From contig JAKSVI010000007.1 of NCBI GenBank assembly GCA_024408095.1, forward strand, positions 1 through 53,570: a DNA stretch of 53,570 nt. The letters are read 5' to 3'. The notes under the pieces are model-generated. The model ran no database searches and had not been told where the DNA came from. It worked only from the letters and a program-made list of their open reading frames with translations. The position numbers and the translations under genes are program-made. Each line of letters starts with the position of its first letter. Position 1 is the first letter of the stretch. Origin of the DNA: Bacilli bacterium. GTDB lineage: Bacteria > Bacillota_I > Bacilli_A > RFN20 > CAG-826. This document shows, in pieces, positions 20,433 to 34,654 of this stretch.

Positions 20433-22220
20433 ATGAAGATTAGACGTTTATTTATTGGTATAACTGCTGCGTTGTTCGCGAGTGCTGGACTTGCGTTTGC
20501 AACTACTGCTGGAAGCCAAACAAAAGTTGATGCGGTTGAAGACACAAAAACAGTTTATCTTGAATTAAACAATTTCCAAGGTTGGGAAAATGATGGTGCT
20601 AAATTTGCTCTTTGGTTGCATCAAACATCCACATGGAGCGCAGACATGACCAAACTTAGTAATTATGATCATATATATTCTGTTGAAATTCCTACGAAAA
20701 TTACTAGTTGCAATTTTGTACGTTTTGACCCAAAAAATCCAACAAGAGATTTTAGTGTGAAATGGAACCAAAGCGGAGATGTTAATGTAAATGATTATAA
20801 CTGCTGTGCTATTACAGGTTGGGATGGATCACAAGATCAAAAAAATATCAAAATTGTTGAAGATGGATATTATCTTGTCGGAACTATGAACGAATGGACT
20901 GCTGATAGTTCAAGCAAAATGTCAAAAAATGCTGATAAAGATGAATACACTATTTCACAAGAATTTAAAACTGATGATGAATTTAAAATTGTCAAATACA
21001 GCAGATTTACTGGCACTTGGTATGGATGGGACAAGTTGGAAGATGCCGATGGCTCTGCAAGAAAAGCTAAACAAATCGTTCCAGCAGATGATAAAGACCC
21101 AGAATGCAATATGAAGGTGAGTCTCGCCGGAACTTATTCACCATATTTTAAAGTGGGTGAATCAAAGATTTGGATTTCAGCTATTGAAGTTACTCATACA
21201 TATACACTTACTGTTAACAGTGAAAATCCAGTCACACTTGTTAAAAATCCAGATAATGAAAATGAATATATGACAGAAACAGCATTATCTCTTAAAAAAG
21301 GTGATGTACTTTGTGCTTATTTAGATGGGAGTGTTTTTGAGGCCAACGCAAAAGAGATTGGAAACAATAACTGCTGGAATAATGAAGGGGTCACTACTGT
21401 TTGTCTCAATCGAGAAGGAAAAGTTTATGTTGATGTAAGTGGGAAAACAATTTTCTGCAGTGGTTTTAATCCAAATGCAAAATATATGTTAGTTAATGAC
21501 CTTGTTGTTGACCTAGCACATAATGAAAATCCAGTTGATCCAACTTTTGATGAATTCTATACAACAGGATACACTTTTGCAAAGAACGATGTTGTTAAAT
21601 TTGTCGATACAAATACAGAATATGGCGGAAAGCATGTAGTTGACTTCAGTATTTTAAAAATCAATGAATCAAGCGTTGAAGGATTCACAGTCACTGGCGA
21701 TGAAACCAAATTATTAGTTTGCACTGCCGAAAACGGAATCACAACTAGTGTGTATGCAAAATTCAAAACAGATAATGATGAAGTTTATTTTGGTGATGTA
21801 ACAGAAGATTTGGCAGCCGCTATTAAATATGCACAAGCATTTAACTCTGCTATGAGTGCTATTTGTAAAAATGATAACACTACCAACTTAGAATCTTTAA
21901 AAGGTGAGTGGTCAAATCAAAGCGACTTGTTCAGCAAATTAATCCCTACATCAAAAACAATACTTAAAGAAGTAACTTCATCTTCCGAAAGTTCTGATTT
22001 AGCCAAATTTGCCGATAAATACGACTACATTTATGGTAAATATGGCGGAGATGTTGGAGCTAACTTTGCTGATAGAGCTGTACCAAATTTCTCAAATATG
22101 AGATCATTATTATCTTCTTACAATCAAAATGCTGGCTTAATAGTTGTTATCGCACTTGTTTGTGCTATTCCACTATTAGTTGGTACAGCATTCATCATTA
22201 AGAAGAAAAAACACAACTAA
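20433..22220 (+). CDS. Membrane-anchored surface protein with Trp-rich and starch-binding-like modules
   Basis: 595 residues. N-terminal signal peptide ending near ATTAGS (about 25-28). Trp-rich module at about 38-135 (TVYLELNNFQGW, WENDGAKFALWLH, NFVRFDP, VKWNQSGD), then a second beta module at about 148-255 (YLVGTMNEWTADSS, FKIVKYSRFTGTWYGW) resembling SusE/CBM-type starch binders, and further beta-rich sequence to about 450. A helical region (AAIKYAQAFNSAM) precedes a C-terminal membrane helix (about 566-590) and a KKKKHN tail. There is no LPxTG, so it is held by the helix. Transcribed alone between two terminators. Likely a glucan-binding protein; not an enzyme by any motif I can see. Confidence 0.72.
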   Translation: MKIRRLFIGITAALFASAGLAFATTAGSQTKVDAVEDTKTVYLELNNFQGWENDGAKFALWLHQTSTWSADMTKLSNYDHIYSVEIPTKITSCNFVRFDPKNPTRDFSVKWNQSGDVNVNDYNCCAITGWDGSQDQKNIKIVEDGYYLVGTMNEWTADSSSKMSKNADKDEYTISQEFKTDDEFKIVKYSRFTGTWYGWDKLEDADGSARKAKQIVPADDKDPECNMKVSLAGTYSPYFKVGESKIWISAIEVTHTYTLTVNSENPVTLVKNPDNENEYMTETALSLKKGDVLCAYLDGSVFEANAKEIGNNNCWNNEGVTTVCLNREGKVYVDVSGKTIFCSGFNPNAKYMLVNDLVVDLAHNENPVDPTFDEFYTTGYTFAKNDVVKFVDTNTEYGGKHVVDFSILKINESSVEGFTVTGDETKLLVCTAENGITTSVYAKFKTDNDEVYFGDVTEDLAAAIKYAQAFNSAMSAICKNDNTTNLESLKGEWSNQSDLFSKLIPTSKTILKEVTSSSESSDLAKFADKYDYIYGKYGGDVGANFADRAVPNFSNMRSLLSSYNQNAGLIVVIALVCAIPLLVGTAFIIKKKKHN

Positions 22221-22243: not shown

Positions 22244-22274
22244 TAGACTAGAGGCTTTGCCTCTAGTCTTTTAA
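22244..22274 (+). terminator. Terminator after the 20433 gene
   Basis: Perfect 10-bp stem GACTAGAGGC (22246-22255) / GCCTCTAGTC (22259-22268), TTT loop, followed by a short T run. Confidence 0.9.
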
Positions 22275-22319: not shown

Positions 22320-22348
22320 TTGATAATGGAAATTTTAACAAGTAAAAT
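22320..22348 (+). promoter_or_regulatory. Promoter of the SipW/secreted-protein cluster
   Basis: TTGATA (22320-22325), 17-base spacer, TAAAAT (22343-22348). The leader of about 45 bases contains GGAAGGA near 22382 ahead of the ATG at 22398. Confidence 0.65.
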
Positions 22349-22397: not shown

Positions 22398-22973
22398 ATG
22401 AAAAAATTCAAGAAAATCTTATTGGTTTTCGGAATGGCTTTATGCTTAGGCGGAGGCGTCGGTGCCGCTGTAGCAGCTGTCACTAGTACCCCAGCTACCG
22501 GTTCAGGTACTGGAAATTTTGACCAAGCCATCAACCTTCGTTGGGAACAGGGCCAAGCATCAACCACATTAGTTGCTATGCCTGACTTAAAAGTTAACGA
22601 ACCTAAATATCGTTATTTGACTGTAAGTCCAGAAGCAACAAGTGCTGTCGCTGGTACAGTAAAACTTACATTCACATTAGCTGTTGGCGAAGTTGAAACA
22701 GAAAAAACAGCCACCATTAAAGGTCTCACTGTTGCTGTTTATGAAACGACAGAATTAGCAACTGATGAAACAGTTAAAAATTTAATTAAGGATGTTGATC
22801 CTAAATTTACTCTTGGTGGAGAAAAATTAACCGACACAATTAGCATTACAGTTGAGGCTGGTAAGGCTACTCCACAATCATTCTATGCTATGGAAGTTAC
22901 CTATGACGGTACTGGCGAGCAAGGAAAAGTATTAGCTGGTAAATTAACAATTAGCCAGAGCTTTGTTGCATAA
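22398..22973 (+). CDS. Small secreted protein, TasA/CalY-like candidate
   Basis: 191 residues with a signal peptide (KKILLVFGMALCLGGGVGAAVAA, ending around 25-30) and a compact beta-rich body with few charged clusters and no cysteine in the mature part. It is followed 15 bp later by a second exported protein and then by a SipW-type signal peptidase, the same gene association as the TasA/CalY fibre proteins of Bacillus. Sequence similarity to TasA itself is not obvious by eye. Good GGAAGGA site. Abundant surface-matrix subunit is my inference from size, position right behind a strong promoter and the downstream attenuating hairpin. Confidence 0.55.
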   Translation: MKKFKKILLVFGMALCLGGGVGAAVAAVTSTPATGSGTGNFDQAINLRWEQGQASTTLVAMPDLKVNEPKYRYLTVSPEATSAVAGTVKLTFTLAVGEVETEKTATIKGLTVAVYETTELATDETVKNLIKDVDPKFTLGGEKLTDTISITVEAGKATPQSFYAMEVTYDGTGEQGKVLAGKLTISQSFVA

Positions 22974-22988
22974 GGAGGATAGTGATTT

Positions 22989-23951
22989 ATGAAATTAAAT
23001 AAATTATTAGGAATCGCTGTTGCCTCATGCGGTGTTGTAGCATCTATCGGTATTGCTGCAGCTTTATACGTTTCCCCAGCTAATCCAGTTTCATTAAACA
23101 TTGGTGCAACATTCGAAGCAAAAGATGGAACTGTCGCTTACAAAATTAACGGCAGTGCTTCTGGTACTTTAACACCAAAATATGAACAAATTGATCCTGA
23201 AACATCTGCTATGGTGAAAGATGATGGTCTTGGTGCAAGCCCAGATTACACACAAATCCACTACTCATTTACCATTGGTGCCACTTATGGTCCAACTGAT
23301 CCACAACAAAGATACACAATGGGTAATCTTAAACTTGTATTCTCAAGCATCAACTCAAACCTTTTAGGAAATTTACAAGTTTATGTTGGAATTGACGGTT
23401 ATAAGGCTAAGACTAAACAGGATGAATCAGCTTCCTATGGTTATACCCAATACCATTCATTAGGCGATCACGAAATAACCTCAGATACAAGTACCCACAC
23501 CATTAAAAGGGACATCGGATTCTATTCTGATGGTTCTACCAATACAGTTAATGTTTACTGCAAAATCAAATCATTTGAAGGATTAGATATGGTTACATTG
23601 GCTGCTGGCAAATTATTTGATTTAGGTGTTACCTTAGATAAACCTGAAGATTTCAATTATGCACGTGTCACTGGTGGTCTTATCGGATGGGCTACTAATG
23701 CTGATACAGATATCTACAGAATGAATCCAAATCTCGAAGCAACAAGCTTTGAATGGTGGTTCGATAATTTACCAGGCGAAATGGGAGCATCAAAATGCTT
23801 CAAAATTAATGGTAAAGATGAACAAGGAAAAGATATTCTTGTCTGGTCAGCTGGTGATGATGCTCAATTGACCAAAGGCCATACATATAATGTATCATGG
23901 GCTGGCGGTTCAGGCGACGCTGCTTCTTATCAAGATCAAGCCCAAGGTTAA
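22989..23951 (+). CDS. Secreted protein with SipW-type signal peptide motif
   Basis: 320 residues. The signal region ends in AAALYVSPANPVSLNIG (about 23-40), which resembles the ALFTD-type cleavage region of SipW-dependent precursors and is nearly repeated in the protein from 24767 (FALHISPAQ). The mature part is beta-rich (YTQIHYSFTIGATYG, LGNLQVYVGIDGYK) with a C-terminal domain rich in Trp and Gly (WATNADTDIYRMNPN, FEWWFDNLPGEMG). AAGGAGGAT site upstream. Co-transcribed with the 22398 gene and followed by a strong hairpin. Probably a surface-matrix or glucan-contacting protein exported by the neighbouring peptidase. Confidence 0.6.
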   Translation: MKLNKLLGIAVASCGVVASIGIAAALYVSPANPVSLNIGATFEAKDGTVAYKINGSASGTLTPKYEQIDPETSAMVKDDGLGASPDYTQIHYSFTIGATYGPTDPQQRYTMGNLKLVFSSINSNLLGNLQVYVGIDGYKAKTKQDESASYGYTQYHSLGDHEITSDTSTHTIKRDIGFYSDGSTNTVNVYCKIKSFEGLDMVTLAAGKLFDLGVTLDKPEDFNYARVTGGLIGWATNADTDIYRMNPNLEATSFEWWFDNLPGEMGASKCFKINGKDEQGKDILVWSAGDDAQLTKGHTYNVSWAGGSGDAASYQDQAQG

Positions 23952-23971
23952 TCCTTAAATTTCTATTTTAA

Positions 23972-24000
23972 ACCCCCATCTTCTAAAGATGGGGGTATTT
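23972..24000 (+). terminator. Strong hairpin between the secreted proteins and the signal peptidase
   Basis: Perfect 11-bp GC-containing stem ACCCCCATCTT (23972-23982) / AAGATGGGGGT (23986-23996), loop CTA, followed by ATTTG, a poor T tract. It can end or pause transcription or protect the upstream mRNA; the signal peptidase ATG is only 12 bases downstream. Confidence 0.75.
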
Positions 24001-24008
24001 GTACAATA

Positions 24009-24770
24009 ATGAAAAATAATAGTGAAAAATTAAAAAAGCCTTCAAAAATTAATAAAAAACAGGATGAAGAAAAGCATAGTCCTATTTATTATATTTTGAA
24101 TACTATTTTATGGGTTGTTGTTTTAGGGGTATTTACGTACTCTATTTTGAATACAATTGATCAAAAAACGGGATTTACATTTTTACCAAACCACACTGCT
24201 GTCATTGTTTCTGAATCAATGAGCTATGTTAATGATGCGAATACCTCATATTTAGATAAAAACATACAACATATAAATAAATATGATGTTATATACACCA
24301 CAAATTATAATTCATATGAAGAAATCGACTATTTAGATAGGATTGTATATATGGGCCAAAGTGGAACATTGGTTTGCCATAGAGTTGTTGACAAATACAC
24401 TGATAATGGAATTAATTATATCGTTACTCGCGGCGATGCAAATTCAACAAATGACACACCATTTGCGTATGCTCAAGTTAGAGGCAGAGTTAGTCAGGTT
24501 ATTCCAAAAGCTGGTTATGTTGTTTTATTCTTTCAATCATGGTATTTCATAATGGCGTTATGCTTCTCTATTTTCTTTATCTTATTAGGAACATTTATCT
24601 ATAACATGAAAACAGATAAGAAAAAATTACCAGAAGTCAAAACTGATGATATAGTTGAAACAAATGTGGAAGAAATAAAATCTTCAAAAAGCGGAAAAAA
24701 ATCTTCAAAATCGCTGCAAAACTCAGATATTGAGACAAAACCTAAGGCTAAGAAGGCAAAGAAAAAATGA
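24009..24770 (+). CDS. sipW: Signal peptidase I of the SipW/ER type
   Basis: 253-residue membrane serine protease expected to cut the signal peptides of its neighbours. Membrane helix at about 28-50, catalytic region in between, second helix at about 175-200, then a Lys/Ser-rich cytoplasmic tail (about 50 residues). Active-site candidates: Ser70 (SESM box), His124 (LVCHRVV) and Asp143 (RGDANSTND). A His in place of the bacterial Lys places it in the SipW/archaeal/eukaryotic class. No Shine-Dalgarno is seen; the start is 12 bases after a strong hairpin. Its TGA overlaps the next ATG (ATGA), coupling it to another exported protein. Family confident; substrates inferred. Confidence 0.85.
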   Translation: MKNNSEKLKKPSKINKKQDEEKHSPIYYILNTILWVVVLGVFTYSILNTIDQKTGFTFLPNHTAVIVSESMSYVNDANTSYLDKNIQHINKYDVIYTTNYNSYEEIDYLDRIVYMGQSGTLVCHRVVDKYTDNGINYIVTRGDANSTNDTPFAYAQVRGRVSQVIPKAGYVVLFFQSWYFIMALCFSIFFILLGTFIYNMKTDKKKLPEVKTDDIVETNVEEIKSSKSGKKSSKSLQNSDIETKPKAKKAKKK

Positions 24771-25732
24771 AAAAATTTGTAGCGGCACTATCTTTGTTAT
24801 TGGCTACTGTTGGAGCGATTTTAAGTTTCAACACCGTTTTTGCTTTGCATATTAGCCCAGCTCAATCAGCCAATATGGATATAAAAGTAATACAAGACAC
24901 AACATTCACTGTTAGGTTTTATAAACTTTATAACAATTCCAGCGGATGGTATATGAATGAAGATAAAACAGTGCCTGCAGGTGGAAAAGTTACTTGCCCG
25001 GCCCTTACAAAAGATGGCTTTACACTTAAAGGATGGTCAATAAATGTTCCAGATATGAATCACTACACCGAAACATATACTGTAGAACAATTAAATAATT
25101 TACCCATTACTCAAAACCTGACATTATATCCAATATTACAAAGCAACAACAATCAAGTGTGGATTAACGCTCTAGGCATTGTCGGAGATGAAAATGCTGA
25201 TATAACTATTTCTACATCCACTATTGGCCAAACAATAATTGGAAAATCTTACGTTGGAATTGATAAAATTCCAGTAGCTGTGGCCAGTTGGAACGATAAT
25301 AGAAACTTGCATACCGCTAGTGGAATATATAAATTTACCTCATCTAATAATGCCGCTCTTGTTAAAAGGAAATTGGGATTTAAACCAAATCCGAAATGGT
25401 CTCAAAATAAAGGTTCCGGTACACCAGCATTTTTTGTGCACACTTGGGGAGTACAGGAAGAAGACATTTTATTAGGAAATACTCTTATCGACGGTAAAGT
25501 ATATGGATATATTGACGCTAGAAACATCAATTTTATAATGGTTAGAAAAGATCATAGCGCAACATCATTTAGTTGGACAGATTGTAATCAATCTGCTAAT
25601 TTATCTTTTGATCCATCTTGGTGGTGGGGAGGTTCATCATCTAATCACTATTCTTCATCCACTATTGTTTTAAATAAATGGGATGATTGGATGGATGGAT
25701 GGGGAAGCGATCAAGCAAACTGGATTGCATAA
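24767..25732 (+). CDS. Secreted protein: SipW-type signal, InlB-like repeat and Trp-rich module
   Basis: 321 residues. Signal region ends FALHISPAQSA (about 25-36), the same ALxxSPA motif as the 22989 product. An InlB B-repeat/Flg_new-like segment follows (about 44-115: FTVRFYKLYNNS, DGFTLKGWSIN, LTLYPIL). The C-terminal third is a Trp-rich module (PAFFVHTWGVQEED, FIMVRKDHSA, SWTDCNQSA, KWDDWMDGWG) shared with three other proteins of the locus. Translation is coupled to sipW by ATGA overlap. A good candidate SipW substrate that also carries the locus-specific glucan-binding-like module, so it ties the two halves of the system together. Confidence 0.68.
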   Translation: MKKFVAALSLLLATVGAILSFNTVFALHISPAQSANMDIKVIQDTTFTVRFYKLYNNSSGWYMNEDKTVPAGGKVTCPALTKDGFTLKGWSINVPDMNHYTETYTVEQLNNLPITQNLTLYPILQSNNNQVWINALGIVGDENADITISTSTIGQTIIGKSYVGIDKIPVAVASWNDNRNLHTASGIYKFTSSNNAALVKRKLGFKPNPKWSQNKGSGTPAFFVHTWGVQEEDILLGNTLIDGKVYGYIDARNINFIMVRKDHSATSFSWTDCNQSANLSFDPSWWWGGSSSNHYSSSTIVLNKWDDWMDGWGSDQANWIA

Positions 25733-32101: not shown

Positions 32102-34654
32102 ATGGCAAGTTTGAAACTAGAACACATTTATAAGGTTTATCCAAACGGGCATAAGGCCGTCAGTGACTTTAATATGAATATTGAAGACGGCGAATTTATC
32201 GTTTTCGTTGGACCTTCTGGTTGTGGTAAGTCCACTACTTTAAGAATGATTGCAGGACTTGAAGAAATTACTTCGGGTGAATTATATATCGGTGACACAT
32301 TAGTTAACGATATGCAGCCAAAAGATAGAGATATCGCTATGGTTTTCCAAAACTATGCTCTTTATCCTCATATGACAGTTTATGAAAATATGGCATTCGG
32401 TTTAACTTTAAGAAAAGTTCCAAGAACCGAAATTCACGAAAAAGTTATGTGGGCTGCCGATGTTCTTGGCTTAAGAGAATATCTTGACCGTAAACCAAAA
32501 GCCATGTCTGGCGGTCAAAGACAACGTGTCAGCTTAGGAAGAGCGATTTTACGTAATCCTAAAGTCATGCTTCTTGACGAACCATTAAGTAACCTCGATG
32601 CAAAACTTAGAAGCCAGATGAGAAGTGAAATCTCCAAGTTACATCAACAATTAAAAACAACATTTATATATGTTACTCACGACCAAGTTGAAGCTATGAC
32701 TCTTGGCACAAGAGTTGTCGTTATGAAATTAGGCAGAGTTCAACAAATAGATTCACCACAAAATTTATATGATCATCCAATTAATAAATTCGTGGCAGGA
32801 TTTATTGGTACTCCACAGATGAACTTCTTTAACGTCACTTTAAAAGAAGAAAAAGATAAAGTGACTGTTAATTTTAAAGATTGTGAACAACCAAATTTAA
32901 CATTAACCAAAGATCAAGTATTAAAAGCCGAAAAGAAATATCTACAAGGTGATAAAGGTATCATTTTAGGCTTTAGATGCGAGGCCATTACCGCTGAAAC
33001 AGAATTAGTCAAAGGCGATAACATCGTTAATGTCACTATTTCTCACTTTGAAGAATTAGGTAATGAAACTTTAATTTATGGTGATTTAAAAGAAGTCAGT
33101 GGTTTAGGTAACGATTCCACCACTTCGGTAATTATTAAAGCTACCTCAAAACTAGGTTATAAACCAGGTGATGTCATTAAAGCAAAGATTGACGTTCAAA
33201 AGATTCATTTATTCGATGCTGAATCAGAAATGACAATTTTACCTCCAATTCCAGAAAAGAACGTTTTACCAGTTGATATCGTTAACGAAAAAATGAATCT
33301 TTTCTCAAATGCAAGTAAACCAGAAAGCATCCCAGTTGATTTTGTTAAAGATGGCACCATCTCTCTTCCAATCGACAGCATTACCGTTGGTAAAGGCAAA
33401 GAGACTGGCACAATATTAAAAATCGAACAACAAAGAAAAGAATATCTCGCTTTAGTTGAAGCTGGAAATAAGAAAATTTTCGTCCTTGTTAATGATAAAG
33501 CAAAAGTTGGGGATAAAATTACTTTCTCAGTAGATTATTCTAAAGCAACATTTAGAGATGAAAACGATAAACTTATTGCTTCTCCTCTCGCAGATAAAGA
33601 TGATATTTCTGCTACATTTGTTAATTTAAAAACAGCTTATGAGACAACAAAAAATGAATCATTTAATCAAATTAGAGATCAACGTATCAAAGCTGTAAAT
33701 GATGAATATCAACAAAAAGAGACGGAATTTGCAGAGAAATGGAATAAATTATTAGAAGAAGCTAAAGTCAAAGAAGAATCATTAGCCTCTCAAGCCGATA
33801 GCAAAAAAGCTGAAGTTTTAAAAGAAAATGAACAATTAAAACTTGACCTAGCAAACGCTAAAACTAAATACGCTCAAGATAAGAAAGAATGTAAAGCTAA
33901 ACACACTGAAATCAAGAAAACTGAAATTGCTAAAATTGAAAATCAATATAAGCAAATGTGGGCTAAAGAAGCTGATGAATATCATGAATCAATGGCGAAA
34001 AATAAAGATGCTGATTCAAGAAGAAGCAGACGCTTATCTTATCAAGTATTTAAAGAGAGCTTCCCTCAAATGAAAAACAACGATCTTGAAAGAAAGACCA
34101 ACGCTTTAGAGTTTGATAAAGAAACTGAATTAAATGCAATTAAGAGCCAATTTTCTCAATTTAAAAACTTCACAACCGATAAGATTAAACAAAATCTCGT
34201 TAAATTTAATGAAGAATATCATCCATATAACGCTTTATTAGCAAAACAAAAAGAAGAACTCAAAGAACTTCAAAACAAAAAGAAAGATGACTTATTACAT
34301 GCTGAATTGATTTTCTTCTTTAAATATGAGGATACATACCAACTTATCCCAGATGAAATAACAAATAAAATCATTCAAGGATTAGGCAACAAAGTCTTCA
34401 CTAAAATATTCAAAATACGAGTTCCACACGCCAACTTTATTAAGACTAACGACGGCAAAGAGTATAAAGTCGTTAGCTATGTTAACTATGGCGATGTGAA
34501 AATGTATAAGTGCACCACTGACTGTATGGGTGAAAAAATTGCTATTTATATAAATAAAGCAGAAGAATTAGAAATTGGACAAACCATTTCTTTACTTCCT
34601 GATTTATCCTCTACAGAAATTTACGAAACAGAATTAAATATCAGGTTATATTAA
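32102..34654 (+). CDS. MalK/MsmX-like ABC ATPase with large coiled-coil extension
   Basis: 850 residues against about 370 for MalK/MsmK. Residues 1-375 are a standard sugar-importer ATPase: Walker A GPSGCGKST (37-45), Q-loop VFQNYALYPHM, signature MSGGQRQR, Walker B VMLLDEPLSNLD, switch VTHD, then a TOBE-type regulatory part to about 375 (KIHLFDAESEM). What follows is not in the family: a second OB/TOBE-like segment (about 418-500, GTILKIEQQRKEYLALV), a long charged coiled coil (about 508-735, rich in Lys/Glu heptads) and a C-terminal domain (736-850) ending in another TOBE-like strand set. No frameshift or internal stop. Cytoplasmic; the extension may scaffold or regulate the importer. Confidence 0.88.
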   Translation: MASLKLEHIYKVYPNGHKAVSDFNMNIEDGEFIVFVGPSGCGKSTTLRMIAGLEEITSGELYIGDTLVNDMQPKDRDIAMVFQNYALYPHMTVYENMAFGLTLRKVPRTEIHEKVMWAADVLGLREYLDRKPKAMSGGQRQRVSLGRAILRNPKVMLLDEPLSNLDAKLRSQMRSEISKLHQQLKTTFIYVTHDQVEAMTLGTRVVVMKLGRVQQIDSPQNLYDHPINKFVAGFIGTPQMNFFNVTLKEEKDKVTVNFKDCEQPNLTLTKDQVLKAEKKYLQGDKGIILGFRCEAITAETELVKGDNIVNVTISHFEELGNETLIYGDLKEVSGLGNDSTTSVIIKATSKLGYKPGDVIKAKIDVQKIHLFDAESEMTILPPIPEKNVLPVDIVNEKMNLFSNASKPESIPVDFVKDGTISLPIDSITVGKGKETGTILKIEQQRKEYLALVEAGNKKIFVLVNDKAKVGDKITFSVDYSKATFRDENDKLIASPLADKDDISATFVNLKTAYETTKNESFNQIRDQRIKAVNDEYQQKETEFAEKWNKLLEEAKVKEESLASQADSKKAEVLKENEQLKLDLANAKTKYAQDKKECKAKHTEIKKTEIAKIENQYKQMWAKEADEYHESMAKNKDADSRRSRRLSYQVFKESFPQMKNNDLERKTNALEFDKETELNAIKSQFSQFKNFTTDKIKQNLVKFNEEYHPYNALLAKQKEELKELQNKKKDDLLHAELIFFFKYEDTYQLIPDEITNKIIQGLGNKVFTKIFKIRVPHANFIKTNDGKEYKVVSYVNYGDVKMYKCTTDCMGEKIAIYINKAEELEIGQTISLLPDLSSTEIYETELNIRLY

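Follow-up and report, generated by a model that had tools for sequence, protein, structure and literature searches.

In a 53,570-nucleotide stretch of contig JAKSVI010000007.1 of a Bacilli bacterium (GCA_024408095.1), hereafter the window, a four-gene cluster was found that appears to be an export system with a SipW-type peptidase of its own, dedicated to a starch-binding surface assembly that is plausibly built by donor strands; we give this reading a probability of about 0.5. The open reading frames, all on the forward strand, lie at 22398-22973 (F1, 191 amino acids), 22989-23951 (F2, 320 amino acids), 24009-24770 (the SipW-type signal peptidase, 253 amino acids) and 24767-25732 (F4, 321 amino acids). 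Gaps of 15 and 57 bases separate F1 from F2 and F2 from the peptidase gene, and the start of F4 overlaps the peptidase stop; therefore F1-F2-sipW-F4 was read as one unit. The placement of the cluster inside a starch locus, made in the initial annotation, held up, as an amylase of glycoside hydrolase family 13 (GH13; gene 9056), a pullulanase (13181) and a GH77 enzyme (25859) are encoded on its flanks.

The mature N-termini of F2 and F4 co-vary. In the window they are LYVSPANPVSLNIGAT (23064-23111, + strand) and LHISPAQSANMDIKVI (24845-24892, + strand), both proposed to be donor-like strands. In the nine genomes with both proteins, the first 20 or so mature residues of F2 and F4 were alike within each genome, for example ALYTGNLPAEKTIQIG and SLYTGTLPADKEMAIG in genome G316 and ALYQQAAENTGFGIS and ALFTQNANNANFGIS in G117, with P = 5e-5, the floor of the 20,000 shuffles of partners. 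The match was unchanged without the first three residues (P = 5e-5) and persisted when the two genomes whose F4 is a full F2 paralogue were left out (P = 1.5e-4). It was absent from the signal peptides (P = 0.85) and from the next 70 residues (P = 0.84) of the nine genomes. In sliding windows, the effect spanned residues 0 to about 15, with P = 2e-4 for residues +5 to +14. Among the identical residues of the paired segments that have more than one codon, 43 of 74 share the codon and 31 of 74 differ, with a nucleotide identity of 55%, so that recent gene conversion is unlikely. A weaker effect was obtained in a separate set of seven sipW loci not associated with F1 (P = 0.009 for residues 0-21). 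The co-varying segment sits where TasA has its donor strand, which in the fibre is formed by the first 11 mature residues (28-38) and which the N-terminus of TapA resembles (PMC9674648). The co-variation thus lends indirect support, at the level of sequence, to the fibre proposed in the initial annotation, and the segment would predict which exported proteins enter which assembly.

A second, classical SipW cluster of the same genome carries N-termini of another kind. Weak matches to PF12389 pointed to contigs C14 and C15. On C14 (locus L061, 1-3150), another ER-type (endoplasmic reticulum-type) peptidase is encoded, with TIGR02228 matched above the cut-off, together with a 216-amino-acid protein with the signal end ALFTRQTT and a large protein with ALFTDKKSAEVSILAG; C15 (L054) encodes an additional large protein, with ALFTDKKSAEIDITAG. 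The large exported proteins of both contigs have ALFTDKKSAE- ends and match the SipW-type signal TIGR04088 above the cut-off. The C14 and C15 N-termini are alike (alignment scores 34 to 78) and differ from the starch-cluster N-termini (10 to 15), of which the F2 and F4 members align to one another with a score of 34; the N-terminal segment is therefore specific to the cluster and not to the genome. The divergent second peptidase on C14 rules out the 24009 product as the only SipW of the genome.

The identification of the 24009-24770 product as an ER/SipW-type signal peptidase with Ser70, His124 and Asp143 (codons at 24216, 24378 and 24435) was borne out. The three residues, a Ser-His dyad with a conserved Asp, are invariant in 12 aligned homologues, and the only significant Protein Data Bank (PDB) relatives of the peptidase profile are SEC11A and SEC11C (E = 3e-10 to 9e-9), which belong to the ER signal peptidase complex. 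Matches to NCBIfam TIGR02228 (E = 2e-11, 43.8 bits) and to the SipW equivalog NF046067 (E = 5e-7, 29.5 bits) stayed below the cut-offs of 51.85 and 190 bits, respectively. An ordinary signal peptidase I is encoded on another contig of the same genome, so a generic processing enzyme exists in it. Peptidase matches were present in 48 of the 146 genomes of the family. The scan of the genome contigs yielded one distant SipW locus, and no relatives of the cluster were found in viral-contig scans.

The motif A-L-(Y/H)-(V/I)-S-P-A, noted earlier at the signal ends of two exported proteins, is present in F2 (A25-A31) and F4 (A26-A32) and missing from F1. All aligned F2 orthologs have A-[L/I/M]-Y where the signal peptide ends (A25-L26-Y27 in the window), which would make Tyr the P2' residue for a cut directly after the Ala. 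An aromatic P2', a trait of TasA/CalY-type substrates, is found in F2 and not in F1; the signal end of window F4 is A26-L27-H28. E. coli LepB processes substrates with an aromatic P2' residue poorly; TasA, whose P2' residue is Phe, is a SipW substrate (PMC10269814). A putative lipobox in F2 (VASC, C14) was dismissed, since its Cys is not a conserved residue.

Starch-binding modules were indicated on F4, and a glucan-binding module was suspected on F2. F2 homologues follow F1 in all loci that were read through, and the best conserved part of F2 is the C-terminal stretch of about 95 residues, a Trp-rich module suspected to be of a glucan-binding type (residues 221-317; 23649-23939, + strand), in which W14, M25 and W36 are invariant in 16 sequences. 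The module profile had no significant match, and in the PDB it retrieved, up to E = 10, only a pair of alpha-amylases and the dextran-binding protein BT3088 in two constructs (SGBPdex; E = 1-1.6); the best Pfam match was CBM53 (carbohydrate-binding module family 53; E = 0.011), in two of the 16 members. Because all of these faint matches are glucan proteins, F2 is likely to bind glucan. The F2 gene of genome G011 (L044:9392-10297) is broken by one in-frame TGA, which may reflect decay, a sequencing error or recoding.

The starch-locus Trp module assigned earlier to one of the substrates was recovered in F4 as a divergent copy (residues 202-278; 25370-25600, + strand) scoring 15.8 bits, a value reached by 0 of 1,992 shuffles and the highest among 243 pieces of the window (next, 6.2 bits). 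This module of the starch-locus proteins 12349, 17429 (twice) and 20433 also occurs on F4 of G141, G117 and G327, and the N-terminal 200 residues of the window F4 resemble the F4 of G327 (E = 1e-5). F4 also contains an InlB/List-Bact-type repeat (residues 53-106; 24923-25084, + strand) with matches below the cut-off to Pfam Flg_new (E = 0.0024) and Flg_new_2 (E = 0.0015). In the closest relative, G315, whose SipW is 53% identical to that of the window, CBM26 occurs twice in the F4 counterpart (L096:10625-11644), at E = 7e-15 and above the Pfam cut-off; no alpha-glucan gene was found adjoining this cluster, and the Pfam scan gave no CBM26 match in the window F4. The starch adhesion predicted earlier is well supported for this type of cluster by the CBM26 stretches of G315 and the shared Trp modules. 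From the proposed merging of matrix and glucan functions, what stands is that a starch function is joined to a SipW export cluster, a combination recurring in other genera. Adjoining the G011 cluster, a 974-amino-acid protein (L044:12708-15632, - strand) contains an InlB-type repeat six times and, three times, a stretch that resembles the CBM26-like part of the G011 F4.

About 17 genomes of the order share the arrangement F1-F2-sipW, often with F4 as well. The F1 profile matched 21 of the 279 genomes of the order, in part through fragments or weak hits, and F2 matches were present in 10 of the 146 genomes of the family. In the fetched loci, F1 is followed by F2 and then by sipW where the contig continues; nine also have an F4-type exported protein beside sipW, and in the G023 and G095 lineages only F1-F2-sipW is present. 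An alpha-glucan gene lies within 3 kb of seven of 17 F1 loci versus one of 21 other sipW loci (P = 0.013), and the single control locus with such a gene is G069, which has an apparently decayed F1 cluster. At 10 kb, the excess around F1 loci was not significant (P = 0.19). Since related genomes are not independent, these adjacency P values are only indicative. The apparent decayed copy (L111; G069:C14, about 177200-178000) lies beside a pullulanase gene and consists of sipW pieces with stops and an F1 fragment. In G079 and G062 (L049:7615-9486 and L050:9224-11065), the cluster adjoins a gene for a GlgB-type branching enzyme and not amylase or pullulanase genes.

F1, the conserved first gene (22398-22973, + strand), encodes an exported protein that is probably a beta sandwich or jelly roll and possibly an assembly subunit or acceptor. 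The initial annotation had called the cluster TasA-like and proposed a comparison of predicted structures with TasA/CalY. The single-sequence model of F1 was a beta sandwich (predicted local distance difference test score, pLDDT, 59; predicted template modeling score, pTM, 0.54). Foldseek matches of this low-confidence model included numerous jelly rolls; TasA (5of1), one match among others, ranked 31st with a template modeling (TM) score of 0.47; the F2 model was too poor for such use. Among 395 genomes of the class, the sole match of the F1 profile outside its order was a weak one in G615 (E = 4e-5), to a protein that adjoins sipW and that, like its neighbor, matches BsaA TIGR04090 and PF12389 above the cut-off. 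The signal region carries most of the score of this match, which runs only from the F1 profile to the BsaA-type protein and not in reverse, and TIGR04090 matched none of eight F1 members up to E = 10. The TasA-like claim gained partial support from this link to a BsaA/PF12389 protein, the low-confidence jelly-roll model and the F2/F4 N-terminus; membership of F1 or F2 in the TasA/CalY family by sequence was not borne out. F1 is taken here as a possible divergent relative. A likeness of F1 to the RNA-phage coat protein 6yfo in the PDB (E = 6e-5 with eight rows, 0.0024 with 16) was taken as chance, as it spans some 50 residues and faded when sequences were added. Likeness of the F2 model to pore-forming toxins (Foldseek, TM 0.1-0.2) was set aside on account of the poor quality of the model (pLDDT 48).

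In the mechanism we propose, the SipW-type peptidase, and not the ordinary signal peptidase I, would cut F2 and F4 and free their N-terminal strand, which would plug into a shared acceptor groove, located in F1, F2 or both, in the manner of the donor-strand exchange of TasA and TapA; long fibres or small complexes may result. The modules would then keep starch bound to the cell, close to the amylase, the pullulanase and the maltodextrin transporter. Amyloid, suggested earlier, is not needed for this, and no observation made here speaks for amyloid or directly for the formation of fibres. A more specific version, which we advance only tentatively, is a donor-strand filament or chain of starch-binding subunits, with the N-terminal strand acting as an address particular to each SipW cluster, so that the two systems of one cell, the starch cluster and the classical ALFTD cluster, would stay unmixed; if true, the chain would provide starch capture free of sortase and cohesin. 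Several observations weigh against the main reading. The co-variation was spotted prior to testing and comprises nine pairs only, and the N-terminus of F1 co-varies with neither F2 nor F4. Profiles from Pfam, NCBIfam and the PDB, and hhalign, placed neither F1 nor F2 in TasA/CalY (PF12389, NF046066), the F1 model is of low confidence, and that of F2 is unusable. The P2' residue of the window F4 is His in place of the usual aromatic ring and F1 has no motif, neither module of the window F2 and F4 reaches a Pfam cut-off, and about half of the F1 loci are without a glucan gene nearby.

Three other explanations were weighed. The dedicated SipW might export separate starch-binding proteins whose shared N-terminus serves as a peptidase recognition or surface-retention tag, with no polymer being formed. 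The gene content and the modules fit this equally well and the sequence searches did not identify F1 as a fibre protein; even so, we regard it as rather unlikely. Signal peptidases are known to read about P3 to P2', and the F2-F4 match extends beyond this span, into residues +5 to +14; moreover, the classical SipW clusters studied by experiment (BsaA, TasA) make filaments. That F4 was formed repeatedly by joining the front of F2 to a new body, the likeness then reflecting recent descent and telling nothing about assembly, agrees with the full-length F2 paralogues in the F4 position in G062 and G373, with the shortness of the segment and with the small number of pairs. Signal peptides would be expected to come along in such a joining, yet they show no within-genome match, the effect persists without the paralogues, and codons differ at 31 of the 74 identical residues, so this origin is improbable. 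Least credible is a general SipW biofilm-matrix cluster that came to lie in a starch locus by chance. The F1 loci lacking a near glucan gene and the nonsignificant excess at 10 kb would suit it, but the F4 of G315 has CBM26 although no glucan gene is adjacent, modules are common to F4 and the starch-locus proteins, the excess at 3 kb favors association, and the decayed copy, too, lies beside a pullulanase gene.

Upstream of the cluster, consensus scans indicated a terminator-like hairpin (22245-22269, + strand; an 11-pair stem and a T tail) directly past the end of gene 20433-22220 and a promoter-like site (22320-22348, + strand; 10 of 12 matches), a kind of site whose count in the region is not above chance. 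The 20433-22220 product combines the Trp module, a second stretch like a glucan module (YLVGTMNEW) and a C-terminal membrane stretch with a positive tail; an LPXTG motif was not seen in it. The starch locus also includes Big_2 lipoprotein-type proteins (16227 and 17429), a solute-binding protein (27916), and ATP-binding cassette (ABC) permeases and ATPase. The MsmK-like ABC ATPase (32102-34654, 850 amino acids) carries about 450 additional amino acids at its C-terminus, charged and coiled-coil in appearance, and a homologue (845 amino acids; 44% over 863) adjoins the F1 cluster in L094. Elsewhere in the family, numerous further sipW loci (L100, L114, L051, L102, L104, L112 and L113) carry genes for two or three exported proteins that have A-x-W/Y ends and a strand in common; the proteins that were tested matched no NCBIfam or Pfam model. 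Together, the exported proteins of these loci form a large set of undescribed SipW substrates.

The cluster resembles tapA-sipW-tasA of Bacillus subtilis, and sipW-tasA, calY and capP of B. cereus, in pairing an ER-type peptidase with co-encoded exported beta-rich proteins that have SipW-type signal ends, and, like TasA and TapA (PMC9674648), it has two co-encoded substrates similar at the mature N-terminus. It differs from them in the starch-binding modules on its exported proteins, in its location in a starch locus and in that F1 and F2 are not TasA/CalY by sequence. With sipW-bsaABCRSD of Clostridium perfringens, in which the BsaA polymer requires SipW (PMC7395162), it shares a sipW operon with several exported proteins outside Bacillus, and the one match of the F1 profile beyond its order is a protein of this BsaA (TIGR04090) type; it differs in lacking two-component genes, in an F1 without a TIGR04090 match and in having glucan-binding modules. 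The Ruminococcus bromii amylosome and Sas proteins, which are CBM26 starch-binding surface proteins for multi-protein starch capture (PMC9112005), have a parallel in the CBM26 of the G315 counterpart. Unlike in the amylosome, no cohesin or dockerin domains were found in the scanned starch-locus proteins and a SipW peptidase is present instead. The faint, nonsignificant resemblance of the F2 module to BT3088 recalls surface glycan-binding proteins of the SusE/SusF type, whose export route and cell envelope are different. In the literature search, papers containing both "SipW" and "carbohydrate-binding module" were, judged by title and abstract, not about a link between the two. SipW systems as such are already known, as builders of biofilm matrix (TasA, CalY and BsaA), and what appears to be new, as far as sequences can tell, is a starch-binding variant of the export cluster. 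Here the export route appears to be tied to polysaccharide capture, a link that would give SipW assemblies a nutrient-binding role and bacteria a further means of holding starch, besides cohesin-dockerin complexes and Sus-type proteins.

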